A stretch of 64,000 nt of DNA, taken from positions 8,274,560 through 8,338,559 of the forward strand of contig NC_054701.1 of the NCBI RefSeq assembly GCF_016097555.1, in the 5' to 3' direction. Under the pieces are notes generated by a model. It made no database searches and was not told the origin of the DNA. It saw only the letters and a list, made by a program, of their open reading frames with translations. Positions 9,314-56,084 of this stretch are shown piece after piece (position 1 is the first letter of the stretch; each line of letters starts with the position of its first letter). The position numbers were made by a program, and so were the translations under genes. The stretch is from Gigantopelta aegis (Eukaryota > Mollusca > Gastropoda > Neomphalida > Peltospiridae).

Positions 9314-9700
9314 GACCGGCCTCGGTGGCGTCGTGGTTAGGCCATCGGTCTACAGGCTGGTAGGTACTGGGTTCGGATCCCAGTCGAGACATGGGATTTT
9401 TATTCCAAATACCGACTCCAAACCTTGAGTGAGTGCTCCGCAAGGCTCAATGGGTAGGTGTAAACCACTTGCACCGACCAGTGATCCATAACTGGTTCAA
9501 CAAAGGCCTTGGTTTGTGCTATCCTGCCTGTGGGAAGCATAAATAAAAGATCCCTTGCTGCTAATTGGAAAGAGTAGCCCATGTAGTGGTGACAGCGGGT
9601 TTCCTCTCAAAATCCGTGTGGTCCTTAACCATGTCTGATGCCATATAACTGTAAACAAAATGTGTTGAGTGCGTCGTTAAATAAAACATTTCTTTCTTTG
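9314..9700 (+). mobile_element. SINE, head type 2, nearly full length
   Basis: The tRNA-like head (GGTGGCGTCGTGGTTAGGCC, then GGGTTCGGATCCC as a near-perfect B box) is joined to the mollusc core (ATAAAAGATCCCTTGCTGCT) and to a tail ending AAATAAAACATTTC. The head differs from that of neighbouring copies, but core and tail are shared. Confidence 0.85.
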
Positions 9701-9820
9701 TCATACATTTGGGAAACATGCCCATAATCACACCCATGAAGTGAACAAAACTTGGTGTTTGTGGCCATACACATCTTTGTTGTGCCTGACGGTGCACACT
9801 CACTCTAAGTTGGTACTGGA

Positions 9821-9912
9821 ATTAAAAATCCCCTATTGCCTCAGTTGGACATGAACCCAGTATCTACCAGTCATTAATTCCAATGGCTTAATCACTATGT
9901 CACTGAGGCCAG
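9821..9912 (-). mobile_element. SINE fragment, head only
   Basis: On the minus strand a tRNA-like head (GGCCTCAGTGACATAGTG..., then TACTGGGTTCATG) ends near GGGATTTTTAATTCC, like the start of the copy at 9314. Confidence 0.6.
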
Positions 9913-10136
9913 TCAGTTTTATTTTTAACTGAGATGAAAATCTGTACATAGATTTTTCCCAGATTTAAAATTTTACTGAACACTACCCAAAAACTGTTCC
10001 TTTGTCAATGAAATAATTATGGTAATGCCCTACTTTCAAAGGCTTATGTTAAAGATTCGGATTTAACTTCATTTCTGACAAACTGAGAGTCCTACATCAA
10101 TGAAATTTGATTTATATTACCAATTCTTCTCATCAG

Positions 10137-10383
10137 TCCTCCATTGGGCTATTTCTTTGTTCCAGCCAGTGCTCCACAACTGGTGTAACAAAGGCCGTGC
10201 TATGTACTATCCTGTGTGTGGGATGGTGCATATAAAAGATCCCTTGCTGTCAATCGAAAAGAGTAGCCCATGAAGTGGTGGCAGCAGGTTTCCTCACTAT
10301 CTGTGTGGTCCTTAACCAGATGTCTGACGCCATATAACTGTAAATAAAATGTGTTGAGTGCATTGTTAAATAAAACATTTCCA
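10137..10383 (+). mobile_element. SINE fragment, core plus tail type 2
   Basis: Starts within the CATTGGGCTATTTC block and contains the core TGCATATAAAAGATCCCTTG and the tail AAATAAAACATTTCC. The head is absent. Confidence 0.8.
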
Positions 10384-10582
10384 TCATCAGTCCTAAAAGC
10401 TTATTACTTTGCCTTGTATGTGATTTTGATGGATTTGATGCATTATTACATTTGTTTTATACATAAAACTGATGGATTTTACTCGAACTGGTCATCAAGT
10501 TTGAATATGATAGCAATGGAACTATAGAATCCCTATTGAAGTGTATATTTCTTGTTAGCAATGTTTGTTGTGTTATTTGCAG

Positions 10583-11232: not shown

Positions 11233-12011
11233 TCATTCATTTATTCAGTAATTTGTTTGTTCTTTTGTTCATCTATGGGTGTTAAACATTTATTTGTTCG
11301 TTCGTTTGTTCATCCATTTATTCATTCATTAATTTTTGTTTTCTTGCACACACTTATGCTGCCAATCTGTAAAATATTCAAAATTCATATATTAATAAAC
11401 AACATTTTTGTTATTGTTTATTTCCACTAACATTCAAGCATGTTGTCATATGCATGTAATTCTTCTACCTCGTCTTTCTGTCCATATTTTCTTGGACAAT
11501 TCAGTTCAATTCAATTCAATTTATTGCAAATTACCAAACAAGCTGGTGTCAGCAAACAGATAAAAAAAACCCCAAACATACAACATCTATAACAACAACA
11601 ACAATTAATAATAATAACAATATTAATGTACATGCCAGACGGAGAAACAAAGTTTGTATTATATTTGTAGAAATAAAGTATATTATAAAAATAAATGGTT
11701 AAAGTACTGGGAGAAACCTGCTTCTGTCACTGGTTTATTTCTAATGAATAGCAGAAAGAGATTTTTTTTTAATACCATTTCCCATCAACACGGGGCAGGC
11801 AACTCTGAAACTGCACTGGTCAAAATGTCTTCCACAGGTCTAGTCACACTTTGACCTTGAACTCTTATGTACATGCACCTTTACCACTTGGGTTTCAGAC
11901 ATGTCTATCCTGGGTCAGATCAGAGAATATTTTTAATACTGGTATGTATGTATTTATTTTTGCACCATTCACTGTTCAGTCTATCAACCTATATATTTTG
12001 TCTGATTTCAG

Positions 12012-12593
12012 AGTGTCTACCGCTGCGACTTCCTGCACCTGGAGACTGTCAAACCACTGCAGGTTGCCTCGGACACTCTGACCACGTATGTGAACAACCT
12101 GCGCGACCCGATCGAGAAACTGCCGCGTGACATCTTCCACATGGTGGTGTTCAGCCTGCTGCTCGAGTACTTCCCGTCGGCCTACCAGCGCTGGCTGTGC
12201 TGTCAGAAGGCCCACAGTCTGCTCACCATCAACGGGTTGCTCCTCATCATCACCCCTGACTCCAAGACGCAGCACAAGAACGCCGGCATGATCAAGAGCT
12301 GGCGTGTGGCCATCGAGTCGATGGGCTTCGTGCGGTGGAGGTACGTCAAGCAGGAGCATCTCCACTGTATGGCGTTCCGCAAGGTGGCGAAACCCGAGAG
12401 CGATAACTGCCTGGTGAACGACGTGTCGCCCGACATGCTCTACATTCCACAGGACTTCAACGATCTCGGGCACGACGACGCAATACTGAGTCACTACTCC
12501 CCCTTCACCGCAGAAGACGAAGATTACTTTCGGTCAACGATGTCCGAGTTACCTGCCCTTGGCTCTGAAGATGACTGTGATGATTCGCTTTGA
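12012..12593 (+). CDS. SAMTOR: SAMTOR (BMT2/C7orf60), last coding exon
   Basis: Follows an acceptor (TCTGATTTCAG ending 12011) in the phase left by the exon at 10583-10697, giving ...ISPAKP-SVYRCDFLHL. It encodes 193 residues to a TGA at 12591. Recognisable family blocks are IFHMVVFSLLLEYFPSAYQR, WLCCQKAH, LLLIITPDS, MIKSWRVAIESMGF and DMLYIPQDFN, with an acidic C-terminus. The exon is much richer in GC than the surrounding sequence. Length and end fit the human protein, whose C-terminal tail is somewhat longer. Identification is from family knowledge, not a database search. Confidence 0.93.
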   Translation, partial: SVYRCDFLHLETVKPLQVASDTLTTYVNNLRDPIEKLPRDIFHMVVFSLLLEYFPSAYQRWLCCQKAHSLLTINGLLLIITPDSKTQHKNAGMIKSWRVAIESMGFVRWRYVKQEHLHCMAFRKVAKPESDNCLVNDVSPDMLYIPQDFNDLGHDDAILSHYSPFTAEDEDYFRSTMSELPALGSEDDCDDSL

Positions 12594-23415: not shown

Positions 23416-23705
23416 AGGGGCGGGATGTAGACCAGTGGTAAAGTGCTCACTTCATGTGCGGTTAGTTTGGGATCGATCCCCATTGGTGGACCCAGACTGG
23501 TATATCAAAGGCTGTGGTATGTGCTATCCTGTCTGTGAGATGGTGCATATAAAAGATCCCTTGCTGCTAATTGAAAAGAGTAACCCATGAAGTGGCAACA
23601 GCAAGTTTCCTCTCTCAATATCTGTGTGGTCCTTCACCATATGTCCGATGCCATATTACGTAAATAAAATGTGTTGAGTGCATCATTAAATAAAACATTT
23701 CCTTC
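23416..23705 (+). mobile_element. SINE, head type 1 joined to tail type 2, full length
   Basis: GGGGCGGGATGTAGACCAGTG and TGGGATCGATCCCC form the tRNA-like head. The core TGCATATAAAAGATCCCTTG follows, and the tail is GTTGAGTGCATCATTAAATA then AAACATTTCC, as in the copy at 9314. Confidence 0.85.
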
Positions 23706-26019
23706 TTCTTTTCCTAATATATACTTAAGTTGGATATAATTGACTTTTTTTTGTAAGGTAACTCCTTGTAACCTAGGTGATTTTTAATAATTTAAATAAC
23801 TTTATAACTACAGTGGATGGATATTTATTGACAAGTTGTACTACACAAGTAGTCATTGTTTTTAACAGTATTTCTTATGTATTCACAATTTTACAATTTT
23901 TATTTCTCGGCATATGTACCTTGTTAACTATAGTCACATCTACTGTACAGGACACCTTGTTAAACAACCACCAATCTATAAATAGCATGCAGACATATTG
24001 ATCAGAACATGTGTTAATAATTTAAATATCCAGCATATTTTGTCAAAATGCATGTTTGGAATAATTGTTCAGTCAATTTTGTATGTATCCGTTGGTAGGG
24101 TGACCATTTTGATATTTATTTCAGATCACCAGCACAAAAGGTGTAAACACTAGTGTGTTATAGAAGTATTATTTTAAATTCCTTGTTTAGTATATATTAT
24201 TCAGTTTCAGACATAAATGCAGTTTCCTAATTGTCAAAAAGTATCTCTGTGGGTAACCTGGTGGAAATATTGCATTAGCGTGTTTCAACAAGTCACTGAA
24301 TTACATATGAACTGTGATTTCTCAGATAAGGCGGTACATATAGCAGTGTTTTATCACATGCCATACTAGACCAGGTGTTCCAGATATCATCTAGTCCTTT
24401 CAAAAGTAATAATCAGTTTTACAAAATTGTGACTTCTCTTTTGTCAAAAAAAGAGAAAAAGTAGGTTTACAAATAGATGAAATAATTTATTTTAAACATT
24501 TTATTAATGACATTCAAAGGACTCCCATATTTGGATTACAATACTGTTACACATTTGTATTTTGAGCATTGGGATTTCACAGTGTATGGGAAACACATTT
24601 TCAGTTCTATTTCCTGTGATCAATGGAACTCGTCAGAAACTGTTTTTCAGTAATTCTGGCAATGGTGAATTTTTTGCATGATAATGCATAACAGACTTGA
24701 TTCCTGTTGACTTTACAGGCATGATACCAGAAATTATCGTTTCTGTTAAATCTAGAAGTCTGTATTTGCTACTTGATTCCAAGCTGATTATTTCAGAAGG
24801 CCTAGTAAGTTGTATAACTTGTGCCTAATCCATTTGTTCTGTTTAAAAAGCAATAAATTATTTCATGAAATTGTGTAGACATATTGCATTGAAAACTTTA
24901 TTCCTTTGAAATTCAATTACCATATGTGTATTCTGTATTCTGTGTACAGAATAGAATTAATTTATGTTTAACTACACCATTATCAGCTAAAATATTTTAA
25001 ATCACATGAACTTTTCCAATATAAAAGTGTCATCTGAATCCTGAAAATATGAATAGAGGGTCCGGAGTGCTGGGAGGTCTACTGGAATAATATTTGGCAT
25101 ACTTCCACCCAAAGCCAAAACTAAATCTGTCTGTTGTTGTTTTTTCTTCCTTTTTTGCAGGGGTTATTGGGTTAGTCCTGTATTGTAATGAAAACTTCCC
25201 AATTTAAATGTCAAAATTTCCAACATTCAGTGTCAGAATGATATCAATGTGAGAAAGTTTTGAAGGAAGTTAGTCATCTTTTTATCATTTCTAACTTACA
25301 TTGTGGTAATAATACATTGTATTTTCAAATCTCATGTGCAACTTTTTACTTTAGTCAGGTGATGCTGCTTTAATGCCTGGATGGAATTTGGATGATGTTT
25401 TTAGAATATTTTACTCTTATGCCAATTTGTTTGGAGATTTTGGCTATTTATTATTAATTAAAAGCAGCTTCTGAAAATAATAATTGTTTTAATTTTTACT
25501 GGGTGTAAAATACCAATCAGTCATATTGCTTTAATATTGTTTTTTTAACATTGAAATTTTACAGCATTGCATACATATTTCAATTTATTTCTGATTTTGT
25601 ATTGTTTATTCTACTGTATTGCTACATCGAAGAGAAATAAATTTTAAGTACAAAGAGTGACTTATTGTTTGTGGCTAATTTCTACATTTATACACAGCTG
25701 CTTGTGGTATACTCATATGGCTTTTTGTTGTGTTTACATACAGCTAAAGTTCAAACATACTGTCCTGGGCATACAAATCTGATTTTAATGGTGAGAAAAA
25801 ACATGCTGCCATTACATAGCTTTCAACAATTAACTGCAGACATATTTTTAATTCCCACTGACAAGATGTCACATATAACCATTATATTGGTTATAGAACA
25901 CTGGCATGGAGAGAAAACAACATGGGGAAATAAAATGAATGCTTCATACACACACAAAAAAACCTCCAGCAAACTGTAGTGAACAACAATTGGCTTATGG
26001 TAGTTGTGAAACTTGGTTT
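23706..26019. other. No gene recognised
   Basis: AT-rich intergenic DNA. Near 25745-25785 a short minus-strand fragment of the third SINE type (CATACTGTCCTGGGCA) is visible. Confidence 0.4.
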
Positions 26020-26217: not shown

Positions 26218-27733
26218 GTCTAGACACTGACAAGAAAAATGGCCACCAGACAATTTCATGTACCAGTTTGGTAGGTACTGGTTGGAACGAGTTTGCCCAC
26301 TGAAGAGGCATTGTTACAAAAGGTTGCAGCTTATTTGCACAAAAATAAGCAGTTAAGAATGAAACTAAAAGAAGTATTTGGTTCAACAATGTTTTGAACC
26401 ATATCTGTTGCTATTTAGTTATTTTAACAACTTGAGAGAGGAAACTAGTGACCGCAAAAACCCCCAAAGCATTAAGATCTTTACCCATAGACTTAACAGT
26501 ATATGGTTTTTGATGAACAGGTTGATGAAAGGCAATTATTAATTTGGGTCCACTGGCAAAAGTATAAATATAGGGCTGTTGTAGAACATACATAAAGGTG
26601 CATGGCACCCTGTGATTATTAAAAGTTTGTTGGTTATTTCTTTTAGACTCGTCGGAATACAAAGAAAAGAAAAAGCATGCACAAACTGAATTGGTGAAGT
26701 TATTCACACTAAATTTTGCCAGGCTTTTGTCTTGTTTTTCCTTATACCCCACTGGTTCATATAAAATACCTGTAGCTTTTATTACATGGGAAAATGTAAG
26801 AGTTTAACATTTCTCATACCAATAAATTTTAAAAACACTGACATTTGTCCTCCGTCTGCTCACTAGGTAAGTTGTCTTAACATCTTGACAGCATTAGGTG
26901 TCAACTACTCAGTATTTGTAACAATTTATACCTTTTATTCACTACTCACTTTTGTGACCATCTAAACTTGTGATGACATTACGAGCACAGCGTAATAATT
27001 CACTGGGATGAGGCTTGTCACATCGTGTGTCCTAGAACTTGTCGAGTCTTTGTTTGTTAACACCTTTTGAGCAGAAATAATTCATGGACATCCTGCACCT
27101 GTCATGGCTTATGTAATAATAAAACATTCTTAAAATGGTATAAAAACAACATATTACAAAAATAAATGTAGGAAAGAAAGGAATATTAACTTGTTTAATG
27201 AAACCTCAGCAGATTTTAAACCTGATGTAGGCATATATGCTACTTATCAAAGGTTGTTGCATAAATATTATTTAAAAGTTTGATAATGGGGATGGGACAG
27301 AAAATGCATTCCCAAATTTTTTTTTGTCTAGCTGAAGAGAACTCTATATTAATATTCATTTTTACTGTACACCTTCCCAGGGGTCTAGGTGTACAAGGAG
27401 TCTAGACAGTGACAAGTGATGTCTTTATTGGCTTGGGTAATGCTTTACCCAACAAATACACTGAAAAAACCAGAAGAGAAAATTTGTTTGGAGCACTTGT
27501 TTCCTGTTATTTTAGTGCACGTAAAACAGTTTGATTGTACATGCAATACTTCAATTCAGTTTTGACTGTGTATGTAGTAATGTATATCAGATTTGATCAC
27601 AAATGTAATACTTTAATAATTATTATTTTAAACTATGTTCTTCTACCACTGCTACATGACTTCTTCATGTATTTGGCTTCAACTCATGTTCAAGTCATGT
27701 GATAATAAGGAGGGGATGAAAGGGAAGGGAAGA

Positions 27734-28042
27734 AAGGAATGTTTTATTTAACAATGCACTCAATACATTTTAATTATGGTTATATGGCATCAAACATCTT
27801 TAAGCACCACACATATAATGAATGGAAACCCACTGCCACCCTGCAATGGACTACTCTTTCCCGTCAGAAGCAAGGGATCTGTTACATGCAGTATCCCACA
27901 GTACATACCTTAACCTTAACTACACTAGCTGTGGAGCACCGACTGAAATGAGAAATATCCCAATGAGCCCACCGACAGTGATTGATTCTAGACTAACTGT
28001 GCATCAGGCGAAGCATTTACCACCGGGCTACATCCCGCCCCA
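27734..28042 (-). mobile_element. SINE, head type 1 and tail type 2, full length
   Basis: Read on the minus strand: GGGGCGGGATGTAGCCCGGTG head, GTTGTG-type middle, a diverged core with AACAGATCCCTTGCTTCTG, and a tail ATTGTTAAATAAAACATTCC. Confidence 0.8.
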
Positions 28043-42205: not shown

Positions 42206-42401
42206 ATGCCACAGATACTGTTGCCGAGATCTGCTACATGTTTACGCTATGCCACGGGCCTGTTGTTTAACAAACCGTCCATATGTTTGTGCTTTTCTCC
42301 AATTTCAGCGGTCCAGAATTCTGTCACCAATGTCACTGTCAGACATATTGCACTATCTCGGAACGTATTTCGTGTTCTGGAAGTTCCTTCAGCAACAGAA
42401 G
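42206..42401 (+). CDS. Exon 1 of an unnamed four-exon gene: mitochondrial-type presequence
   Basis: ATG in AACAATGCC context opens 65 codons plus one base, ending at GAAG|GTATAA. The peptide (MPQILLPRSATCLRYATGLL...) is rich in Arg, Ser and hydrophobic residues and lacks acids until about residue 57, as in mitochondrial targeting sequences. The leftover base and the first two bases of the exon at 49401 form GCC (Ala66). Adding exons 2-4 gives a protein of 459 residues. I do not recognise the gene. It looks like presequence, two dsRBD-like segments and an RNase H domain. Intron 1 (42402-49400) has gathered transposons and a satellite. Confidence 0.65.
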
Positions 42402-42490
42402 GTATAACGTACTACACAACAGAGCGGCACATTTATTTTATTTTTAACTAAAATGTGTGTACAAATATGTTTTATTTGCATAACAAACAT

Positions 42491-43437
42491 TAGCCCGAGT
42501 ACTCTGACTGTAAGAGAGCTAGACGGACATTTGGACATAAACACGCTCTCATTACAGTCAGAGACCAACCTATGTCTTTTTTTGGCAATTCCTGACTACC
42601 AAACGGTAGGCAACGAGTCCCGCTCTAATACCACAACAATCCTATGTTTGACGTCAAATACCTTTACATCAATCATTTTCGAGTTAAGTGATACAAAAAA
42701 ATCCACATATTAATCACTAATACACATACTACAGAAAGAAACCCGACAGCACCCACAATCAGCTACGCTTCGTGACACTCCGTCGCAACAATTACAAAGC
42801 TCGGCGATCTATTTCGAGACTGGGCGATTCCGCCTTGTGCAGCAGTTACAGGGGTCATCTCATAAGAGGAGGCAGCACGTAGCACATACTTTTGCCGTAT
42901 CCTGTCGATAACACCCCAAATGTATCCTTCAAATTCAAAATAGAATCAATAATGTGTAATTGTTTTGGTTTAATGACGTAATGAAATCCAAATTCATCCA
43001 AAACGGCATTAGCCAACTCTTCCATGTTGTAACTTCGCTTGATATGAGACGGCCCCTGTAACTGCTGCACAAGGCGGAATCGCCCAGTGCGCGATCACGT
43101 GGTCTACGTCTCGAAATAGATCGCCGAGCTTTGCAATTGTTGCGACGGAGTGTCACGAAGCGTAGCTGAATGTGGGTGCTGTCGGGTTTCTTTCTGTAGT
43201 AAGTGTATTAGTGATTAATATGTGGATTTTTTTGTATCACTTAACTCGAAAATGATTGATGTAAAGGTATTTGACGTCAAACATAGGATTGTTGTGGTAT
43301 TAGAGCGGGACTCGTTGCCTACCGTTTGGTAGTCAGGAATTGCCAAAAAAAGACATAGGTTGGTCTCTGACTGTAATGAGAGCGTGTTTATGTCCAAATG
43401 TCCGTCTAGCTCTCTTACAGTCAGAGTACTCGGGCTA
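42491..43437. mobile_element. Mutator-like long-TIR element carrying a helicase fragment
   Basis: Inverted arms of about 370-390 bp (42491-42865 and about 43050-43437) run from TAGCCCGAGTACTCTGACTG to its mirror CAGTCAGAGTACTCGGGCTA. They flank about 190 bp of unique middle. The 9-bp sequence AACAAACAT lies directly outside both ends, a typical MULE target duplication. Near each tip is a second hairpin (CTCTGACTGTAAGAGAGC with GCTCTCATTACAGTCAGAG). Non-autonomous; the transposase is absent. Confidence 0.75.
42855..43070 (-). pseudogene. Captured RecQ/DEAD-type helicase fragment inside the long-TIR element
   Basis: The minus-strand frame reads ...ELANAVLDEFGFHYVIKPKQ then LHIIDSILNLKDTFGVLSTGYGKSMCYVLPPL. 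FGVLSTGYGKS is a Walker A motif of RecQ-like helicases (usually V..TG.GKS), preceded by a Q-motif-like region and followed by YVLPPL. Only this part is present and its start lies in the TIR. It is probably a gene scrap picked up by the transposon rather than a working gene. Confidence 0.55.
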
Positions 43438-43454
43438 AACAAACATTAAAGGCA

Positions 43455-43478
43455 GTGATCACTTTAGTTCATCAAGAC
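43455..43478. repeat. Left half of a palindrome interrupted by the long-TIR element
   Basis: AGTGATCACTTTAGTTCATC before the element mirrors CTTGATGAACTATGATCACT after it (44670-44690). With the insertion ignored this is a palindromic unit of about 65 bp related to the satellite at 46.8 kb. Confidence 0.6.
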
Positions 43479-44638
43479 GGAGCCTGGCGATCTCGCCCCG
43501 TGTCGATCTCGCCCTGGCGAAGTCGCCCCGTGCGAGTTCGCCAGGACTTATTTTCATCGTTAGGCGAAGTTATCATACATATTAGACTTGCTAGAAGACA
43601 TATATTACAACATATATTATAGTATATATCTACTGTCATTATCAGCATGTTTTTGTGCCAAAACTACAGGGTTATACCACTTATACTACTAGTTTTGTGT
43701 TGGGACACGCTGTGGCGAGATCGCCATATTTACTTCCGTGTTGCATGTCTGTTTAGCGAAATCGCCAGTACATTATAACTCAACAATATTCAAGTTACAA
43801 GCTGTTATATGTTTACTTCATTAAGTAAAAACATGTGCAGTAGTCATGGTTTGATTTTCTTGTTGTAAAATGTAAACATTGGTAGTTTACATTTCTACGC
43901 AACTATTTGTCATAAGTGCACACTTTAACATTCATATATTTATTATACCAAATTGAACATCAAAGTGTGCACTTATGACAAATAGTTGTGTAGTAACGTG
44001 TGACAACTTCACCCGACACAAAAATGCTACACTGAGAAAATCCTGGCGATCTCGCCACAGCCTGAAAAAGTGAAATAATAAGAAATGTAAACTTAAAAAA
44101 TGTTAAATTACATGATGAAACAAACCATAAATGTGTACTTTACGTGTATTTATTATAATAAACTGTAAACGTAAACAAGAAAAATCCTGGCGATCTCGCC
44201 CCGGCTTGCAAGTGAAATCGTCAGAAATGTAAACTACCAATGTATTACATTTTACAACAAGAAAATCAAACCATGACTACTGCACATGTTTTTACTTAAT
44301 GAAGTAAACATATAACAGCTTGTAACTTGAATATTGTTGAGTTATAATGTACTGGCGACTTCGCTAAACAGACATGCAACACGGAAGTAAATATGGCAAT
44401 CTCGCCACAGCGTGTCCCAACACAAAAATAGTAGTATAAGTGGTATAACCCTGTAGTTTTGGCACAAAAACATGCTGATAATGACAGTAGATATATACTA
44501 TAATATATGTTGTAATATATGTCTTCTAGCAAGTCTAATATGTATGATAACTTCGCCTAACGATGAAAATAAGTCCTGGCGAACTCACCCGGGGCGACTT
44601 CGCCAGGGCGAGATCGACACGGGGCGAGATCGCCATAC
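43479..44638. mobile_element. Second long-TIR element, Mutator-like
   Basis: Arms of about 400 bp (about 43485-43890 and 44215-44632) mirror each other, beginning TGGCGATCTCGCCCCGTGTC. TTCATCAAGAC lies outside both ends (43468-43478 and 44639-44649), an 11-bp duplication. The tips contain several direct and inverted CTGGCGA-CTCGCC motifs. An inner hairpin (CAACTATTTGTCATAAGTGC with its mirror at about 43963-43985) sits in the middle. No coding sequence seen. Confidence 0.75.
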
Positions 44639-44690
44639 TTCATCAAGACAAACCTTGAATGCAAGTGCACTTGATGAACTATGATCACTT
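44639..44690. repeat. Right half of the interrupted palindrome, satellite-like unit
   Basis: TTCATCAAGACAAACCTTGA and CACTTGATGAACTA compare with the satellite unit ATCAAGCTAAACCTTGACAT and GCTTGATGAACTA two kilobases downstream. Confidence 0.55.
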
Positions 44691-45236
44691 CTGCTTCCCT
44701 CCACACTTGCCTAGAAAGTTATGTGAGAACTGCAAATTGATTGCCTTGCAATAAAATTTGAAATAAATTTCATTTGCACTTCATGATGTGATTGCACACC
44801 TGGCATCATTTAAGGAGAGTGATCTTCATCTCACCCTGATTTTGCTCATGGTAAAGACTGATTACGGTCAACAACAGAAACTGAGCTCACCGCTGTTTTC
44901 CCTTCATATACAGTAAATATACCATATCTGGTGCAGGTGGAGAGTTTCGGAAGTCAAATTTTCTTTTTCCTCAATATATTTTTTTAGGGGAGAATGACTC
45001 AAACTCTCCCCCACCCGCTTTATAAACTTTGGTTGTCCTGAAAAAAATTCCTGAACATGCACCTGCATATCCAACAGTAAACTATTTTCAAGGATGAAGT
45101 TATTTTTTTGGTTAGTGTGGCAAAGCATAGTAATATATAACTGCTTTAAATTTGAATGATTTTCACCAATTGTCACCACTGAAATAACAATAAACTGGGT
45201 GAATGAGGCTCCCGTTTTTAGAATGCTGGAAAAATT
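44691..45236. other. Intron sequence, nothing recognised
   Basis: Contains a small palindrome (GGGGAGAATGACTCAAACTC then TCCCCC, 44982-45013) and a 127-codon minus-strand frame without family resemblance. Confidence 0.4.
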
Positions 45237-46565
45237 CAGGGGTTCCAAAAATTTCAAAAACATTACTTGCCACCGGGCAAGTGACAATCAAATATTCACT
45301 TGCCCCATATATTTTTCCACTTGCCCATACTTCTTAAGGTAACCAATTGTGTTACTCCTATTTAATTTAATACAGTGCTTAATAGTGTAATAATCTTGAA
45401 ATAATTCTTTTATGGCTGGCATTGGGTCAAAAATGTTTAGGGATTTTGGCCCATGTGTCATTATTGTGTGTATATTATTTAACATTTTGTGCCCCAAAAC
45501 ACTTCTCTGGGGTGTTTTTACCCTGTTAATAGCTGGGGAAAGTCTCTCGTAAACAGCCCTGGCAGGGCTCAAAGTAAACATGAGCTTGTTTCTTTTAAAT
45601 AGTGCAGGCTTGGTAAACAACAGCCTCCCTGGGTGTACATTGATTGCAGCCTTGTATTTTTAACTTATTGGGCATAATTTATTTGTTAAAAACTATTAAT
45701 AAAGCAGAAAAAAATATATATTCATGTATGCTTAGAGGGCATCGCACCATCACGATTATGACGTAGGGCTAATGAAATATAACTTTACCTTACCCGTTCA
45801 TTTTACACGAACGTAGATTTACATTTGTAAAGTACTGAAAACCCCCCATCAAGTATGTTCTGCTACAAGGTTTATTATATCTAAACTAAAATGTCTTGCA
45901 ACTTTTATAAGAATACAGTTCATAATATTTAGGCTCTGTTCAAGTGAACTCTGAAATTATAAACTTGCTTTACGCCCCCGTTCATTTGCAAAGAGCAGAT
46001 TCAGGAACCACATTAACGTCTAATTTAATTTAAATATGACAATTTTAAACTGTATCCCACCTCATTTACCATGTTTGCAAGGATTAAACATTATGATTGC
46101 ACACACAAGGCATGTATACTTTATTTTTATATAAGCTGTAAAGCGTATTGGAAGCTATTTCCAAGTTTGAAGATCATCGAACCGATTACTTGTATGAATT
46201 CAGTCGAATGTTCAGTGGCGAAAATTACCGATCTTAGTCGATAGTAAAAGGTGAATAACTCTAAAATTTGTTATCGAACTTCTCAACACATTGTTTTCCA
46301 TTTTGGTGTGTCAACACATTGGCAAGAGTTCCGATCGTTCTAGCATTTAGGGTTAGGGTTAGTTCTCCTTATAGAGCTATGTAAATGCTCGCACAATCGG
46401 AACTCTTTCCAAAGGTTTTACCGAAATTTGTAACAAAATTTAAAAACGGTTTTAGGGGTTACATTAGTCACTTGTCATTGGGCATATGCAGTTAACATAA
46501 TTAATTGCCCGGCATGAAAATTCCACTTGGCACGAGCGTCGGGCGATGGGATTTTTGAACCCCTG
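45237..46565 (-). mobile_element. Decayed hAT DNA transposon, about 1.3 kb
   Basis: Ends are CAGGGGTTCCAAAAATTT and the inverted GATTTTTGAACCCCTG, the CAGGGGTTC type common in hAT elements. AAAATT flanks both ends, but a clean 8-bp duplication is not clear. CCACTTGCC-like and GGGCAAGTG motifs repeat near the left end. Only a C-terminal scrap of transposase remains. Confidence 0.7.
45288..45620 (-). pseudogene. hAT transposase C-terminal dimerisation region, fragment
   Basis: The 110-codon minus-strand frame contains YERLSPAINRVKTPQRSVLG, HKMLNNIHTIMTHGPKSLNI and FDPMPAIKELF. This matches the hAT C-terminal pattern (R-x-FS-x-MN-x-IKT-x2-R-x2-L ... L-x2-L-x2-I-x3-GP ... FD-x2-A). The DDE part is not present, so this is a deletion derivative. 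Confidence 0.7.
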
Positions 46566-46758
46566 AAAATTTAAATGTAAAAGTGCTATTTAAAAAAATT
46601 GGTTTGAAGATTACTAATGCATTTCACAGTTTTTAAGCAAAATATTGTAATCTAAAAATGGTATCTTTTACGAATTATGGATATGAAATAAAATGACAGT
46701 AAGATATATTTATTGTTTACAAAGCCAAAATGATGGTGCAGGAACTGACTGTCGTTGA

Positions 46759-49181
46759 CCATAGTTTATCAAGCTAAACCTTGACATACACCTTTCGAGG
46801 TTTATCAAGCTAAACCTTGACATACACCTTTCGAGGTTTATCTTGATGAACTAAACACCATAGTTTATCAAGCTAAACCTTGACATACACCTTTCGAGGT
46901 TTAGTTTTATGAACTAAACACCATAGTTTATCAAGCTAAACCTTGACATACACCTTTCGAGGTTTAGTTTGATGAACTAAACACCATAGTTTATCAAGCT
47001 AAACCTTGACATACATCTTTCGAGGTTTATCAAGCTAACCTTGACATACACCTTTCGAGGTTTAGCTTGATGAACTAAACACCATAGTTTATCAAGCTAA
47101 ACCTTGACATACACCTTTCGAGGTTTATCAAGCTAAACCTTGACATACACCTTTCGAGGTTTATCTTGATGAACTAAACACCATAGTTTATCAAGCTAAA
47201 CCTTGACATACACCTTTCGAGGTTTAGTTTTATGAACTAAACACCATAGTTTATCAAGCTAAACCTTGACATACACCTTTCGAGGTTTAGTTTGATGAAC
47301 TAAACACCATAGTTTATCAAGCTAAACCTTGACATACATCTTTCGAGGTTTATCAAGCTAACCTTGACATACACCTTTCGAGGTTTAGCTTGATGAACTA
47401 AACACCATAGTTTATCAAGCTAAACCTTGACATACACCTTTCGAGGTTTATCAAGCTAAACCTTGACATACACCTTTCGAGGTTTATCTTGATGAACTAA
47501 ACACCATAGTTTATCAAGCTAAACCTTGACATACACCTTTCGAGGTTTAGTTTGATGAACTAAACACCATAGTTTATCAAGCTAAACCTTGACATACACC
47601 TTTCGAGGTTTAGTTTGATGAACTAAACACCATAGTTTATCAAGCTAAACCTTGACATACATCTTTCGAGGTTTATCAAGCTAACCTTGACATACACCTG
47701 TCGAGGTTTAGCTTGATGAACTAAACACCATAGTTTATCAAGCTAAACCTTGACATACACCTTTCGAGGTTTATCAAGCTAAACCTTGACATACACCTTT
47801 CGAGGTTTATCTTGATGAACTAAACACCATAGTTTATCAAGCTAAACCTTGACATACACCTTTCGAGGTTTAGTTTTATGAACTAAACACCATAGTTTAT
47901 CAAGCTAAACCTTGACATACACCTTTCGAGGTTTAGTTTGATGAACTAAACACCATAGTTTATCAAGCTAAACCTTGACATACATCTTTCGAGGTTTATC
48001 AAGCTAACCTTGACATACACCTTTCGAGGTTTAGCTTGATGAACTAAACACCATAGTTTATCAAGCTAAACCTTGACATACACCTTTCGAGGTTTATCAA
48101 GCTAAACCTTGACATACACCTTTCGAGGTTTATCTTGATGAACTAAACACCATAGTTTATCAAGCTAAACCTTGACATACACCTTTCGAGGTTTAGTTTT
48201 ATGAACTAAACACCATAGTTTATCAAGCTAAACCTTGACATACACCTTTCGAGGTTTAGTTTGATGAACTAAACACCATAGTTTATCAAGCTAAACCTTG
48301 ACATACATCTTTCGAGGTTTATCAAGCTAACCTTGACATACACCTTTCGAGGTTTAGCTTGATGAACTAAACACCATAGTTTATCAAGCTAAACCTTGAC
48401 ATACACCTTTCGAGGTTTATCAAGCTAAACCTTGACATACACCTTTCGAGGTTTATCTTGATGAACTAAACACCATAGTTTATCAAGCTAAACCTTGACA
48501 TACACCTTTCGAGGTTTAGTTTTATGAACTAAACACCATAGTTTATCAAGCTAAACCTTGACATACACCTTTCGAGGTTTAGTTTGATGAACTAAACACC
48601 ATAGTTTATCAAGCTAAACCTTGACATACATCTTTCGAGGTTTATCAAGCTAACCTTGACATACACCTTTCGAGGTTTAGCTTGATGAACTAAACACCAT
48701 AGTTTATCAAGCTAAACCTTGACATACACCTTTCGAGGTTTATCAAGCTAAACCTTGACATACACCTTTCGAGGTTTATCTTGATGAACTAAACACCATA
48801 GTTTATCAAGCTAAACCTTGACATACACCTTTCGAGGTTTAGTTTGATGAACTAAACACCATAGTTTATCAAGCTAAACCTTGACATACACCTTTCGAGG
48901 TTTAGTTTGATGAACTAAACACCATAGTTTATCAAGCTAAACCTTGACATACATCTTTCGAGGTTTATCAAGCTAACCTTGACATACACCTGTCGAGGTT
49001 TAGCTTGATGAACTAAACACCATAGTTTATCAAGCTAAACCTTGACATACACCTTTCGAGGTTTATCAAGCTAAACCTTGACATACACCTTTCGAGGTTT
49101 ATCTTGATGAACTAAACACCATAGTTTATCAAGCTAAACCGTGACATACACCTTTCGAGGTTTATCTTGATGAACTAAACA
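46759..49181. repeat. Palindromic satellite with higher-order repeats of 323 bp and 1,292 bp
   Basis: Units are built on ATCAAGCTAAACCTTGACAT, ACACCTTTCGAGGTTTA and TTGATGAACTAAACACCAT. Successive unit lengths are about 99, 62, 62 and 99-100 bp, and this set repeats every 323 bp, about 7.5 times: the ACATACATCTTTCG variant recurs at about 47011, 47334, 47657, 47980, 48303, 48626 and 48949. Two other variants (CACCTGTCGAGG at 47697 and 48989, with GTTTGATGAAC replacing GTTTTATGAAC nearby) recur 1,292 bp apart, four 323-bp sets. Each unit can fold on itself (TATCAAGCTAAACCT with AGGTTTAGCTTGATGA). Confidence 0.95.
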
Positions 49182-49345
49182 CACATACAAGTACGTATAT
49201 ATGCATAATCAATTTGAACTAAACACATACAAATACATATACATGCATAATCAATTTGAACTAAACACACATACAAGTACATATACATGCATAATCAATT
49301 TGAACTAAACACGCATACAAGTACATATACATGCATAATCAATTT
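49182..49345. repeat. About 44-bp tandem repeat, 4 copies
   Basis: CATAATCAATTTGAACTAAA recurs at about 49204, 49246, 49290 and 49334 with CATACAAGTACATATACATG between. It shares GAACTAAACAC with the satellite end and may have grown from it. Confidence 0.9.
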
Positions 49346-49400
49346 GCATTCACACTTACCTATGTTTGATATTTAAACATGATTTTGTCGGTATTTGCAG

Positions 49401-49642
49401 CCAGTATGCTGAAGAGAAAATTTGAAAATCCACGACAAATAATTCATAAATTGCTGCAACCGCTGGTGACACATGGTGGCATCCCCGAACCGTTTGTGAA
49501 GTATTTGGCTAAGCTGAACGGTCAGTACTGGAAAGCTCGGCTCCAGGTGAAGTGGCCATATGACATGATGTTCACCGGTGTCCACAAGAGTATCACCGTG
49601 GCCGAGGAGAATGCATATCTCCAGGCCTGTCAATTGTACTCA
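49401..49642 (+). CDS. Exon 2 of the unnamed gene: first dsRBD-like segment
   Basis: Acceptor GGTATTTGCAG ends at 49400; donor TACTCA|GTGAGT is at 49643. With the base from exon 1 it codes residues 66-146. ENPRQIIHKLLQPL would be helix 1, YWKARLQVKWPYDMMFTG the strands, and ITVAEENAYLQACQLYS helix 2 of a double-stranded-RNA-binding-like fold. The nearest resemblance I recall is the N-terminal region of mitochondrial helicase DHX30 (KWP...ACQL). There is no room for a helicase core in this gene, so that name is not used. The exon ends on a codon boundary. Confidence 0.75.
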
Positions 49643-50209
49643 GTGAGTAGAGATATATTGTAAAAAGATACATGTACAGGCATACATGAAATGAGGCACA
49701 CAGGGTTCAAGAATATTACTTAACCTGAATTCATGTAATGTTGCATACAATGTTGAAGAATGTTCCCTCACTTTGGAGTTATGAAATGAGGCATACAGGG
49801 TTAAAGAATGTTTCCTCACTTTGGAGTTATGAAATGAGGCATACAGGGTTTAAGAATGTTTCCTCACCTTGGAGTTATGAAATGAGGCATACAGGGTTAA
49901 AGAATGTTCCCTCACCTTGGATTCATGAAAAATATTACCTTAATCTGGATTTATCAAATGGGTGATGCAGAGTTTAAGAATATTCTCTCACCCTGGAGTC
50001 ATGAAATGGGTATGTTGGGTTATAGAATATTACCTTAGTCTGGAGTCATGAAATGGGGTATGCAGGTTTAAAAAATATTACCTTAATTTGAATTCATGTG
50101 TGTGCAAATTCTTCCTCTAAACACTAATAGAATGAACAAATTCTGTATTTACAGGTGATGATTAATAAATCATATGCTTTAAACAAAACAAACTTTAACA
50201 TTGTTTCAG
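49643..50209. repeat. Intron 2 with 48-bp tandem repeat
   Basis: ATGAAATGAGGCATACAGGG recurs at 49781, 49829 and 49877, with looser copies from about 49685 to 50110. The unit of 48 bp keeps one reading frame open, which is not a gene. Confidence 0.85.
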
Positions 50210-50497
50210 TATGTTGGTCTGATCTATGAAGACTCTCACACAAAGCAGACAGCGCCAGTGACTGAACAGTTCATTCTGAAGATGCTGGACGTCCTGTATC
50301 AGCAGAGTGGGATCTACACGGCGGAGCACCTGACCAGTTACCGGATCACGACGACACGCGTCCACGTTGATGACGACCTCGTGTGGCACGCGGAACTGCA
50401 GGTGCCGTGGCCCCACCCCGTGATCGTGACGAGCACCGCACCCACCATGCGGGCCGCACAGTACAGTGTCTGTCTACAGACCTGGATCAAACTCAAG
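50210..50497 (+). CDS. Exon 3 of the unnamed gene: second dsRBD-like segment
   Basis: Acceptor ACATTGTTTCAG ends at 50209 and donor CTCAAG|GTATGA begins at 50498. The exon has 96 whole codons (residues 147-242). FILKMLDVLYQQSG, then WHAELQVPWPHPVIVT and TMRAAQYSVCLQTWIKLK repeat the helix-strands-helix pattern of exon 2. The 5' part is AT-rich, the 3' part GC-rich, as in the SAMTOR exon. It is in phase with both neighbours. Confidence 0.75.
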
Positions 50498-50544
50498 GTA
50501 TGAAGTCCACATCATCAACTATTTCTAATTTTCTATCCCTTTTC

Positions 50545-50605
50545 CCCAATAGCCAATGTATTTTTCGTGCTGGGGTGTCATTAAACATTCTTTCATTTAA
50601 TCCCT
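50545..50605. mobile_element. SINE tail fragment
   Basis: CCAATAGCCAATGTATTTTT then GTGCTGGGGTGTCATTAAAC resembles SINE tail type 1; a similar scrap is at 56240-56290. Confidence 0.5.
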
Positions 50606-50805
50606 TTTCATTCATTCATTCATTTCTATGCTTATATCCAACTAAGATTCAAGCATGCTGTCCTGGGCACAAACCTCGGCTATCTGGGCCGTCTGTCCAG
50701 GACAGTGGGCTAGTTGTTAGTGGTTAGTGAGAGAGAAGTCAGTGTAGAAAGAACCCAGTACTTACGTGGTTTAACCACGACACCACAGAGGCCATCCTAT
50801 ACCAG
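50606..50805 (-). mobile_element. SINE of the third type
   Basis: On the minus strand: GGCCTCTGTGGTGTCGTGGT, TAAGTACTGGGTTCTTTC, GACAGACGGCCCAGATAGCC, GGTTTGTGCCCAGGACAGC, ATGCTTGAATCTTAGTTGG and a GAATGAATGAATGAA tail. Confidence 0.75.
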
Positions 50806-50999
50806 CCTCCATTTTAAGTATATTTTTCTGTCAATAATTCCAGTGTGGCACCATGTAAAAAGAAAAGGAAAATATTTTCAGAAATAACAAAAATAATTTT
50901 TTTTTTTTTAATGTACTTTGTTATAAACTGGATGTTCTGTGACTGGTTCATGAACAACTGTTTTGTACTTTTCTTTCTAAACATCAGTGCCTAAAAATA

Positions 51000-51260
51000 T
51001 CCTGCCACTTTTTATACACTCATCTAAGATGGGTCATATTATGGTATAGCGTTGTCCGTCCATACGTACGTCCGTCCATCCATCCATAAACTTTTTCTTG
51101 TCTGGACCATATCTTGCATAAAGGACCATCAAACCTCACATGTAGGAACAACTTGGGATGGAAGTGTGTCGCTTACTATTACTAGGTCACTGTGACCTAC
51201 TTTTCAGTCTACTGCACATAACAGTATATCCGTGTCCAGACCATATCTTGCATACCCATG
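51000..51260. repeat. Dispersed repeat (copy 1), left of the 3 kb insertion
   Basis: Contains GTCCGTCCATCCATCC, GACCATATCTTGCATA, CATGTAGGAACAACTTGGGA and GGTCACTGTGACCTA. The same blocks return at 54360-54560. Confidence 0.75.
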
Positions 51261-51959
51261 AATCGAAATAAGTTGAGAACGGTCATTCAGGTTACCGGGA
51301 GGTTACGACATGTAAGAAAATTTCAACTTTAACCGTAGTTTCGTTTCTGAACGTAAACCAGGCAATGCATTCCGGACTTCCGCGTTTCATTTTCTCGTAA
51401 GGAATTGCATCAATGTTCGCGCGCACTTGTGCAATAGACCTCTTTCACATTCCACTGTGCATGTGCCCGTTGCGGGGTAACTTGAAGACGCAAACCGCGA
51501 ACTCACGCAAGATCTTGCAAAAATAGACCTGTGGACAAATTGGGGGGCATAGACAATGGGAGGCCATACAATAGGAATGTGAATATCTCCATTATTAATT
51601 ATTCTATCAGTAGGGAAATTCTGTTGACATCCAACAAGAATTATTGGAGAAATTTATGAATTATTGCTTATCATGAAATAAAAAATATTTTGTTGTTAAT
51701 GCCCGACAAACCATCGGTTCGGATTCGTACGCAATAAATATGGGATATGAGCTGAAATAATATTAATGTGTTCGCGCGTGTATGTATGCAGATATTTATT
51801 GTATTTAACATAATTTAAATATTTATAAAGCATTATACAGATAAATACATTCAGGATTCTTGTTGGAATTTCTTTTCACCAAGTTATTTAAAATTTTGTT
51901 CGGTATTTGGAATAAAATTAAATGATACATATGAAAGTTGAGCTATGGTATATAAAACA

Positions 51960-52130
51960 TTAGAATCAGGCTCGTAGGAACGATATCTGGAGTTGGGGGG
52001 GGGGGGGCACAATCTGTAGTGGAGGGACACAGTCTAGTTGGTGGGGGGACAAAAGCCATATTTTAAACCGGGTTTATAAAATTGGGGCTATAGTCCCCCC
52101 TCCGACTTCTTGGTTGCTACCGACCTGAGA
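51960..52130. mobile_element. G-rich MITE, relative of the 20 kb minisatellite founder
   Basis: CTCGTAGGAACGATATCTGG at the left and the inverted-like CTTGGTTGCTACCGACCTGA at the right surround G-runs and CACAATCTGTAG. It matches 19960-20065. Confidence 0.6.
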
Positions 52131-52765
52131 ATGGTCAGAAATGTAACTGTATTGCATATACAGCTATTTAAATTCGAAGCAAGATTATTTAACCTAAGAA
52201 AGATAGAAGTTTTATTTATTAGATTAGACTAGCCGACAGCTTGATAATATAGCTACAAACTCAGGATGGTCTCTTTATTATAAACTCATGAGGGTTTATT
52301 ATGCACAGTTATAAGGTACTTCATTTGAATGTTTGAAGCAAACATATTAAGTACCATGTCAGGCCCATAGCCAGGAGGGATTGGGGGGATCGGACGATTG
52401 AGAGTTCCACTCAAATGAAAAAAAAATTAATTAGGATTTTACATACAAAAGTCCTTGTCCCCAAATGACCTGGATAACATAATAAGAATGTCTGTCTGAG
52501 GTTCCATTTGCTGAAAGTGGGCCTGTTTGATTATTTCCCGTCCCAACCAATGATCCATCAAAGGACGTCGTGTATGCTATCCTGTTTGTGGGATGTGAGA
52601 AGTATGCCATGTATCATTTATTATAAATGCATTGGTACGACTGAAAACAAACTATTTCTTGTTGTGGCTCTGTGACCTGGCCATTTTACATGCATTCCAC
52701 AACGTATATTTCGCAACAAAAGTTTGTGTATTATTCTCGAGTGTAACCGGCGTCATCTCATTGTT

Positions 52766-52900
52766 TGGCAAGGGGGATCGAAATTTCTTGTAAACGAAAC
52801 TAGATATCTGGGAACCCCCCTGTCTATGGCTCCGTGCCTTCAGCGCTTGCGTTTGATGAGTTCCGTTTACATGAAATTTCGATCCCCCCCCCCCCCCTAC
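52766..52900. repeat. Hairpin with about 30-bp arms
   Basis: GGGGGATCGAAATTTCTTGT and AAACGAAACT mirror AGTTCCGTTT and ACATGAAATTTCGATCCCCC, with a loop of about 70 bp. Confidence 0.85.
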
Positions 52901-53449
52901 TAATCATGCTGGCTACAGGTTGAAGTTATATACACTATCATAAGTTAGACCAAACATCAAATTAGGATCGTATCGGGTTGCATGGGTCTACCACCCTGAA
53001 AAGGTTGCTGCACTTTGTTATGTATAATCATGTATGTTATAAAAACATGTGATACTTGCATACCATGTTGGTATATAGGACTTCTCCCTATACTTGTAAA
53101 TGTGTATCAAAGTGCTGATGGTATTGCTAATGATCTCGACCAATGTTCTCAGGTACAAAATACAAAATAGTAACCAAACACTATTGTACATACAGATATA
53201 TGTTTACTTCAAACTGATCTTCATGTAAAGAAGAATATGTCATCTTCAAAATTCTTCAAAACAAACAACGCAAACAGCATGTCAACTTTTACTTCCGTGT
53301 TTACAGGTGATGTCAAACTTTGAGCCGCGTTTACTTGGTTTCTGATGTCATGCTAAGTTGTAGGTTTTCGCTTGTGATGGCTCATATATGTTTTAAAACT
53401 TCGTAAATATCAGATGTTATTTCAAGTGAAGTTGTATGTATCTGATACA

Positions 53450-53535
53450 AACGATAGTGAAAATAAAATAAAATAAATTGAAATAATAAATAAAATAAGT
53501 AAATAAATAAGTAAATAAATAAATAAATAATTTGT
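53450..53535. repeat. AAAT-rich simple repeat
   Basis: Run of AAATAAAATAAATTGAAAT- and AAGTAAATAAATAA-type sequence within intron 3. Confidence 0.9.
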
Positions 53536-54359
53536 GGTTAGACATGTAACATTGATTAGTAGTTGTACGACTGTCTTTTTTAATGAAACAATAAGGGGAA
53601 AATAGAGCTGTGATAAAGGTCTATGTGAGTTAGTGGTTTTTTAGGGGGAAGGGGAGGCATATTTTATTAAATTTTAAATACTGATACATGTGGAGTATTA
53701 AACATCACTGGAAATCCGTTGAGTATTTAAAAGTATAAAACACATTCCACTAAAGTTAATTTTATAGTATGAATCTTTTAATTTTGAGTTGTTAAAATAC
53801 CCTTGACAGGTGGCTCCAGAGACTTCGTCTAAGTTAATGTTTCACTGCTTTTGGTCTTAAACTATTCCGATACATGTAAACTTTAGTAGACCGTTTTTTG
53901 CAGCCATTTTAACATCTTATACAAAATATGTACATTAGTCACTAGAGATTCACAGCTCCTACGAAGCTACTAACAACACTCATGACAACTGTCAGTCATT
54001 CCCCCCAATTTGTATATAGCCTCAATACCGTCCAATTTGGCAAGGGATGGTACTCTTCGTGCACATGCACAATGGGAATGTGAAAGAGGTCTATTATAGT
54101 CATTCCACGTTAAAGCAGCGTCCACTAGATGAATTTACTTCCGCGTTTCGTTTTCTCGTACGAAATTGCACCGATGTTTGTGCGCACTTGTACAATTGCA
54201 AGCAATTTTGGCACTCCACATTTAAGCAGTGCCCGCTAGATAAATAAGTAGTAGTAACAGGAATTCAATTCTAACTTTCATATAGTTTGGTAACCTATAG
54301 GCTACCAGGCTATATTTTGTGGTAACCTGTAAATGTGTTACCAGACACAATGCTTATTT

Positions 54360-54560
54360 TGATGTCTGCATACCATCAAACCTCACATGTAGGAACAACT
54401 TGGGATGGTGGTGTGTGGTGTACTATTACTAGGTCAATGTGACCTATTTTTCATGGTCTACTGCACATACCAGTAAATCCTTGTCTAGATCATATCTTAC
54501 ATACAGATGCATACAGGACCATAAACCACATGCAGGAACAACTTGGGATGGTGGTTGGTC
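54360..54560. repeat. Dispersed repeat (copy 2), right of the 3 kb insertion
   Basis: CATACCATCAAACCTCACAT, AGGAACAACTTGGGATGG, AGGTCAATGTGACCTA and ATCATATCTTACATACAG match the blocks at 51095-51250. Confidence 0.75.
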
Positions 54561-55403
54561 CAAAACAAACTGTTCATCCATCTCATTGCAAAAAGTTAAC
54601 ATTATTAGACTTGAATCATACCCGTAACATATTCATTGCTATAGATATGGTTTTCCATCCAACTCCTGATGGGCGTATCATGTACCTCACCGGTACTCTT
54701 GTTAGTAAGAATAGTCTGTATGGGGTATTTTCTCATCCCTACGAATGCACCCTGGCTGGAACATCAAAGGATGTAGTACGTTATATGCTGTCAATAGGAA
54801 AATGAATATTAAAAATCCCTAGCTGCTATTTGGTAGGGATATTATATGTAGCTGCAAGTTTTTCTTTGGACCAAGTTTTGAAATAACATACAATTAACAG
54901 TGTATGTATTCAGGATAGTGTACATGAACCATAAGTAAATCATTATTTTAAGTACCAGTATAAGTAAATGACAGTCCTATTCTTTTAGGCTAAATATGTA
55001 TTCAAGGTTAACTTTAGATTATAATAATGTAAAGTTAACACCAAGTTATCCTTAGATGACATTAAATAAGTTTTCATTTACAATAAAGGTTATTTCAATA
55101 GGTGTCCTTGTTTTTGGATAAAGTTTGGAACATTTATTGTAGGTATTTTGTAAGATGTTTTGCAGCACTTACATGAAAGTAGGAATAACACTTTTTACTC
55201 ATTATTTTGAATACGATGTATACAGTAAAATAGATTTAAATTTCGGAGCTCATAGCTCATAATTTTATTATTAAGTTAACCTATAATTTAAATTTGTAGT
55301 CATGAATATAATGTTATATACGAAATAAAGGACAGAAATATAAAGTATCTGATGTCATGTGATTTCCAGTGGATATTAATATAGATATCCCTTTTTCCTT
55401 CAG

Positions 55404-56057
55404 TTTTTTCGACTGCTCACAGGAAACAATTTACTCAATGTACAAAAGCTGCCCCGATTGTCAGAGAGGCTTGCCAAACAACAGTCAGCTGTACCCTTGT
55501 CGAAAGAGGAGTTTGACCCGGATTACGAACTGTTCGTGGACTCGTCGCGAGTTGGCTTTGGTGCATACCTCCTGGCGCAGGGGGAAGACAAAGTCCGATG
55601 GCTGTCAGATTTCTGGCCAGACCACTTCAATGAGGAAACTGTGATGCTTCCAGAACCGAAATTCTATTCTTCATTTTATGAGTATTATGCGCTGGTTGCT
55701 GCTTGTTATACGTGGAAGCACAAGTTTGTGAACAAGAAGGTTCTGTGTTGGTCAGACAACATGATGGCCGTGGGCATGGTCAATATGAATCCCTATTTGA
55801 TAAACAGCATCACAATGAAGCCAAACGGCAAGCTCTATCGGATCATGGTTCAGATGTGTCTCAAGTACAACATCCGTCTGCAGGCACTCCACCTCAACAG
55901 GGAGGAAAACACAGCAGCAGACATGCTGTCGCGGGTCCATGTGGAGAAGTTTCGAGAAGTCTTCCCCGAGGCTGATGAAAAGAGCAAGAAAATTAAAAAA
56001 CTTTTGTTTTGGAAACCTATTTATCAAAGCAATTCAATAAACTTGAAATGCAATTGA
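55404..56057 (+). CDS. Exon 4 of the unnamed gene: RNase H domain of DIRS-like retroelement origin
   Basis: A strong acceptor (CCCTTTTTCCTTCAG) ends at 55403. The frame is open from its first base and starts on a codon boundary, exactly as exon 3 ends. It codes residues 243-459 to a TGA at 56055. Motifs: LFVDSSRVGFGAYLL (Asp288), SSFYEYYALVAACYTW (Glu335), KVLCWSDNMMAVGMVN (Asp360) and LHLNREENTAADMLSR (Asp415). These are the four RNase H acids in order, in the style of DIRS/Ngaro-type retroelements, including the closing FREVFPEAD. No other retroelement part was seen nearby. It could be a host-adopted domain (favoured) or a solitary retroelement remnant with a chance acceptor. Confidence 0.65.
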   Translation, partial: FFRLLTGNNLLNVQKLPRLSERLAKQQSAVPLSKEEFDPDYELFVDSSRVGFGAYLLAQGEDKVRWLSDFWPDHFNEETVMLPEPKFYSSFYEYYALVAACYTWKHKFVNKKVLCWSDNMMAVGMVNMNPYLINSITMKPNGKLYRIMVQMCLKYNIRLQALHLNREENTAADMLSRVHVEKFREVFPEADEKSKKIKKLLFWKPIYQSNSINLKCN

Positions 56058-56078: not shown

Positions 56079-56084
56079 AATAAA
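56079..56084 (+). terminator. Polyadenylation signal AATAAA after the RNase H exon
   Basis: GTCAATAAAGAATTG lies 22 bases after the TGA, suggesting a very short 3'UTR. Confidence 0.6.

Follow-up and report, generated by a model that had tools for sequence, protein, structure and literature searches.

The described systems closest to the gene treated here are eukaryotic RNase H1, DHX30, host genes domesticated from mobile elements and retrotransposons of the Ngaro/DIRS order. The available portion of PMC3750045 implicates RNase H1 in mitochondrial RNA work, and that of PMC8430983 ties DHX30 to mitochondrial RNA work and describes DHX30 isoforms made with and without a mitochondrial signal through alternative first exons. 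In a paper on Dictyostelium retrotransposons, as far as its accessible text goes, 'domestication' refers to safe insertion sites and not to a host gene (PMC5633606). The gene in question lies in a 64,000-nucleotide stretch of the genome of the gastropod Gigantopelta aegis (contig NC_054701.1, positions 8,274,560 to 8,338,559); the whole stretch is called the window, and coordinates refer to it. The product carries a basic N-terminus, two tandem double-stranded RNA-binding domains (dsRBDs) and an RNase H domain. The explanation favoured here, held with a little more than even confidence, is that of a domesticated single-copy host RNase H, taken from a Ngaro/DIRS-like element and delivered by DHX30-type dsRBDs, likeliest in mitochondria.

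Gene structure and distribution among gastropods

Four plus-strand exons (Table 1) join in frame into 459 codons, with GT-AG borders at all three introns and a TGA stop at 56055-56057. Two open joins are possible between exons 1 and 2, giving 459 or 460 residues; the 459-residue product is identical over its full length to the NCBI entry 'uncharacterized protein LOC121367469' of Gigantopelta aegis. The GC content of the exons is 0.45-0.57, as against 0.32-0.36 in the introns and 3' flank. An AATAAA follows the stop codon at 56079, and a second one, at 56036, falls within the coding sequence. An earlier note made from the DNA letters alone (the sequence-only reading) had proposed four exons with consensus splice sites, a closed 459-codon frame and an AATAAA ending the gene, all of which stand.

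A search of 5.8 billion proteins returned eight with the same domain order, the Gigantopelta protein included. The seven relatives found in this way, as the sequence-only reading had suggested looking for among molluscs, are all gastropod proteins and include those of Patella caerulea, Haliotis rufescens, Nucella lapillus, Littorina saxatilis, Batillaria attramentaria and Babylonia areolata. The members cover at least Neomphalina, Patellogastropoda and Caenogastropoda; Haliotis belongs to Vetigastropoda. The relatives show 36-44% identity to the query over 75-90% of its length, and exons 2, 3 and 4 of the window are each matched by all seven at E <=0.01 (Patella on exon 4: 48% identity, E 1e-63). 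The 50497/55404 join, regarded in the sequence-only reading as the weak point, thus recurs in the same order in 7/7 other gastropod proteins, and the RNase H exon, which might have been absent or not conserved in related species, is present in each of them. The four-exon gene is confirmed as real, and comparison with these relatives supports the join of exon 3 to exon 4. An annotation artefact, in which software joined an element fragment 4.9 kb downstream to a dsRBD gene, was rejected and is given next to no credence: the length of intron 3 and the element type of the RNase H would suit it, but seven other proteins have the same join and align exon by exon, and the exon has one copy, a clean frame and no flanking element remnant.

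Within the family, counting only region pairs that have at least 10 aligned residues, RNase H and dsRBD1 show mean pairwise identities of 0.52 and 0.51, dsRBD2 one of 0.33 and the linker one of 0.20. The basic tail reaches 0.64, and among the regions compared 426-448 has the strongest conservation (mean identity 0.64, 28 pairs). The position of intron 2 looks conserved, since the Nucella model P0010 leaves the aligned frame at the end of Gigantopelta exon 2, reading K-V-S, a possible GTGAGT donor, and P0011 departs from the alignment at the same place. A profile search over proteins of 252-803 residues (5,008 candidates sharing words) found no further member in that length range and added only P0009, a reverse-transcriptase protein (E 1.7e-3). 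No relative outside gastropods appeared in it, which does not show absence; heterobranch, bivalve and cephalopod matches were likewise lacking, the presence of proteins of these groups in the database being unchecked. A second profile search, over 142-451 residues, for a standalone dsRBD ancestor without RNase H returned P0004, P0008 and the short models P0010 and P0011, and this negative is weak because the known in-range members P0003 and P0006 were missed.

The family profile has a single match in the PDB up to E 1, namely 2db2 (KIAA0890; E 2.1e-6), which we take to be a dsRBD of DHX30; the matched stretch of 2db2 scores 86 bits on Pfam DSRM_2. Profiles of the two segments match each other with 96.5% probability (E 8e-10), and the predicted structure contains two dsRBD folds, the first being alpha-beta-beta-beta-alpha with a block predicted local distance difference test score (pLDDT) of 79-94. 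Both the two dsRBD-like segments and the DHX30 resemblance of the sequence-only reading are borne out. In the Gigantopelta genome the dsRBD exons occur only at this locus. A search of that genome with the 2db2 stretch for a separate DHX30 gave no match, an uninformative empty result, and Pfam lists no helicase family for the eight whole proteins.

Origin of the RNase H domain

In the 1.15 Gb Gigantopelta genome the RNase H exon gives 142 matches, a lower bound, of which a single one is exact. Twenty loci among the 141 weaker matches were read, and 19 have a tyrosine-recombinase frame, as in Ngaro/DIRS retrotransposons; the recombinase motif was found by pattern in 18 of the 20 and by eye in L019, and was not seen in L020. 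When these loci and a gypsy stretch of the window were compared (21 sequences), 20 matched and the gypsy stretch did not. Blast bits for the match to the RNase H are higher with the recombinase elements than with the two contrast sequences, a gypsy element and a partial RNase H1-type sequence. Tryptophans W308 and W313 are common to the recombinase elements and the fusion RNase H, and an F...P.A motif after the RNase H is common to both groups of proteins. The assignment to the DIRS/Ngaro type made in the sequence-only reading agrees with these comparisons.

No reverse transcriptase or tyrosine recombinase was found in the eight proteins by Pfam. Using tblastn of 28 open reading frames of >=150 residues, taken from 11 element loci, against the window (E 1e-3), no remnant of either was found in intron 3 or directly downstream; the RNase H exon did match. 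A live element or element passenger was rejected on the single exact copy and the lack of such a remnant beside the exon. One copy, the lack of such element partners beside the exon and conservation in seven other proteins all speak for a captured retroelement domain kept as a host gene, as had been claimed.

Elsewhere in the window, seven short matches to the recombinase-side open reading frame of L025 lie at 9522-10397, 23605-23708 and 27729-27812 (six with 61-82% identity, one with 35%); they are likely remnants of recombinase elements. The gypsy stretch used for comparison, at 3381-4367, is the frame of a gypsy-like long terminal repeat (LTR) element whose RNase H reaches 118 bits against Pfam RT_RNaseH.

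Trees were built with 14 of the 20 loci, leaving out L003, L005, L006, L008 and L023 as near copies and L022 with 2,001 N. The eight fusion proteins group together in each of the two trees (support 91/98 and 84/100). Patella, Gigantopelta and Haliotis cluster within it (95/97 and 99/97), and the caenogastropods stand apart from them; the placement of Batillaria with the caenogastropods has weak support in the first tree and is left open by the second. This pattern fits a single capture early in gastropods, and the gene probably arose once in early members of the class.

It is very improbable that the domain came from a cellular RNase H1 or from a gypsy LTR element. Such an origin gains from the deep nodes linking the fusion group to the elements, which are unresolved, with long branches flagged for gypsy, RNase H1 and P0009. 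A grouping of the fusion proteins with the elements and P0009, to the exclusion of gypsy and RNase H1, is neither rejected nor established (p-AU 0.31); the contrast comprises only two rows, a gypsy one and a partial one of RNase H1 type, and the 14 element rows keep near-copy pairs and were chosen by likeness to the query. The blast bits, the two tryptophans and the motif after the RNase H nevertheless favour recombinase elements, and Pfam lists RT_RNaseH for 8/8 members and RNase_H, weakly, for 1/8.

RNase H1 itself has left traces in the same genome. Four matches to its hybrid-binding domain were found elsewhere, and close to one of these lies an RNase H segment with a PF00075 score of 66 bits. 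L010 with L031, and L032 (C15), are of RNase H1 type, with the hybrid-binding domain close to RNase H. Two RNase H1-type copies that were read look frame-broken, in the manner of retrocopies made from an RNase H1 transcript. RNase H1-type sequence exists apart from the fusion gene, and an intact RNase H1 gene does not follow from these copies. Within the family, the hybrid-binding domain PF01693 is listed for 0/8 members at E 1.

Catalytic residues, activity and cellular site

The full catalytic set named in the sequence-only reading (D288, E335, D360 and D415) is correctly placed and invariant in 8/8 proteins. The structure prediction that it had proposed for the dsRBD and RNase H segments gives, besides the two dsRBD folds, an RNase H fold at modest confidence. 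The RNase H has probably been domesticated and is probably active. Fusion proteins share fixed changes of their own, G408R and G347K, at positions where the element rows have G in 14/14 and 13/14 respectively, and these could alter substrate or activity. They speak for a domain that no longer cuts and has the role of binding hybrids or RNA within a protein of mitochondrial RNA granules or ribosome assembly, an idea that also accords with the mitochondrial RNA work of DHX30 as far as the source cited above covers it. This alternative is improbable: the four acids are invariant in all eight proteins over deep divergence, and a domain for binding only would hardly need them.

Residues 1-58 contain 6 K/R and 0 D/E and are disordered in the predicted model. 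A basic, acid-poor N-terminal stretch is present in 5/8 proteins, Gigantopelta included, and in Nucella P0010. Pooled, the six presequences have 46 K/R and 5 D/E in 288 residues, a composition that suits mitochondrial import, and a mitochondrial presequence is plausible. The basic, acid-poor character is in keeping with the targeting sequence suggested in the sequence-only reading; helical amphipathicity does not exceed that of shuffled sequences in 5/6. An in-frame ATG lies at 49379, 22 bases before the exon 2 acceptor, and Littorina P0006 and P0011 (6 members) begin just upstream of exon 2, in a place like that of this ATG. A start there could give a form without the presequence; the similarity upstream of exon 2 may also be only a translated splice-acceptor consensus.

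These starts bear on a second alternative, in which the same gene and enzyme would act in the cytosol or nucleus as an anti-retroelement or R-loop factor. There the dsRBDs would find element RNA and the RNase H would cut RNA:DNA hybrids, so that a retroelement domain is turned against retroelements. The genome is rich in such elements (at least 142 matches to the RNase H query), the P0006 and P0011 models start without a presequence near the window ATG, and DHX30 has isoforms both with and without the signal, according to the portion of PMC8430983 available. The basic, acid-poor presequences of six models count in the other direction, as does the chance that the likeness upstream of exon 2 reflects the acceptor consensus alone; overall this site appears unlikely, though it is the strongest of the alternatives.

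Under the favoured explanation, the RNase H and a short following sequence of a Ngaro/DIRS-like tyrosine-recombinase retrotransposon would have been incorporated, as the final exon, into a gene for two tandem DHX30-type dsRBDs behind a basic N-terminus. The dsRBDs would hold the protein on A-form double-stranded or hybrid-containing RNA, the D-E-D-D site would cut the RNA strand of RNA:DNA hybrids, and the basic C-terminal tail may add binding. The likeliest site would be the mitochondrion, a compartment with R-loops, primers and structured transcripts; dual targeting through an alternative start before exon 2 is conceivable, in the manner of the alternative first exons of DHX30. A more specific proposal, tentative and rated somewhat below even, is that gastropods have a second mitochondrial RNase H, which came from a tyrosine-recombinase retrotransposon and is guided to mitochondrial RNA and R-loops by DHX30-type dsRBDs.

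Several results, besides the features of the trees and the fixed changes described above, weigh against this explanation. Exon 2 scores 14.4 bits on Pfam DSRM_2, under the cut-off of 27, and DSRM_2 is listed for 0/8 whole proteins; the Gigantopelta Pfam matches are below curated cut-offs. The RNase H exon has 0 matches in the PDB by sequence up to E 10. The model is weak in its RNase H portion (block pLDDT 39-79, and 51 around D415), bearing in mind that single domains can come out weak in predicted models of more than 400 residues and that the PDB fold list for the model ('pdb_via') can miss folds that Foldseek missed. Helical amphipathicity is at shuffle level in five presequences, Gigantopelta's among them, and 3/8 gene models have no presequence, the Nucella one being perhaps a split model.

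The locus and its relation to known systems

Table 1. Features of the fusion gene, in window coordinates
Feature	Position	Strand	Remark
Exon 1: start codon and basic, acid-poor N-terminus, residues 1-58, candidate mitochondrial presequence	42206-42401	+	GT donor
Intron 1, 7.0 kb, two long inverted-repeat elements and a 323-bp tandem array	42402-49400	+	
Exon 2: dsRBD1, DHX30 type, residues about 63-147 including first codons of exon 3	49401-49642	+	
Intron 2, phase 0, donor GTGAGT at 49643	49643-50209	+	
Exon 3: dsRBD2, residues about 165-243	50210-50497	+	
Intron 3, 4.9 kb	50498-55403	+	
Exon 4: RNase H (residues about 280-432), conserved C-terminal tail, stop	55404-56057	+	
Catalytic Asp288 codon	55539-55541	+	by sequence; D in 8/8 family proteins, 14/14 recombinase-element rows
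Catalytic Glu335 codon	55680-55682	+	by sequence; E in 8/8 family proteins, 13/14 recombinase-element rows
Catalytic Asp360 codon	55755-55757	+	by sequence; D in 8/8 family proteins, 14/14 recombinase-element rows
Catalytic Asp415 codon	55920-55922	+	by sequence; D in 8/8 family proteins, 14/14 recombinase-element rows
Family-specific basic C-terminal tail, KKxKKLLFWxP-like, residues 436-447	55983-56018	+	
AATAAA polyadenylation signal 3' of stop	56079-56084	+	

Intron 1 contains foldback elements at 42490-43438 (arms of 331 nt, 99% complementary) and 43467-44653 (arms of 409 nt, 97% complementary), and a tandem array at 46758-49187 with 7.5 copies of a 323-bp unit (99% matches). Outside the gene, an open reading frame at 12006-12593 has a weak match to Pfam Bmt2 (18.5 bits, cut-off 20) and is perhaps an exon of an S-adenosylmethionine (SAM)-binding methyltransferase-like gene.

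No paper describing the gene was found in the open-licence literature (titles and the beginnings of abstracts; preprints and subscription papers lay outside the search), nor was a description of a tyrosine-recombinase-element RNase H kept as a host enzyme. The statement in the sequence-only reading that no protein of this make-up is described holds for these papers and not for databases, where the proteins are entered as uncharacterized or hypothetical and two family members are already called RNase H type-1 domain proteins. The gene family is new but of a known kind, the domesticated element gene, and its domain combination was not found described. Retroelement RNases H are numerous; this family offers a defined protein, a genome that still harbours likely parent-kind elements, and members from a number of gastropod subclasses that can be compared. 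It makes testable how a host turns an element RNase H into a working nuclease, whether dsRBDs can replace a hybrid-binding domain and whether an additional RNase H operates in gastropod mitochondria.

As in eukaryotic RNase H1, a small nucleic-acid-binding module stands ahead of RNase H, and a D-E-D-D set is found in a predicted RNase H fold; here, however, dsRBDs take the place of the hybrid-binding domain and the RNase H is of element type. A second mitochondrial RNase H, if there is one, would mean that the RNase H1 plan had been invented again, independently, out of element parts. The N-terminal part of DHX30 shares the dsRBD type, through the profile match to 2db2, and the candidate presequence may be set beside the DHX30 isoform with a mitochondrial first exon in the part of PMC8430983 available; the gastropod proteins, in contrast, end in RNase H, and no DEAH helicase core was found in them. 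Ngaro/DIRS-order retrotransposons are alike in RNase H sequence, tryptophans and the F...P.A tail, whereas the gene is single-copy, fused to dsRBDs, fixed for R408 and K347 and has no reverse transcriptase or recombinase at the locus. Like PGBD5 and Imagin, as far as the available parts of their descriptions go, the family represents a protein captured from an element and retained through very long periods; those two are derived from transposase or integrase-like proteins, and the present one from a retrotransposon RNase H.

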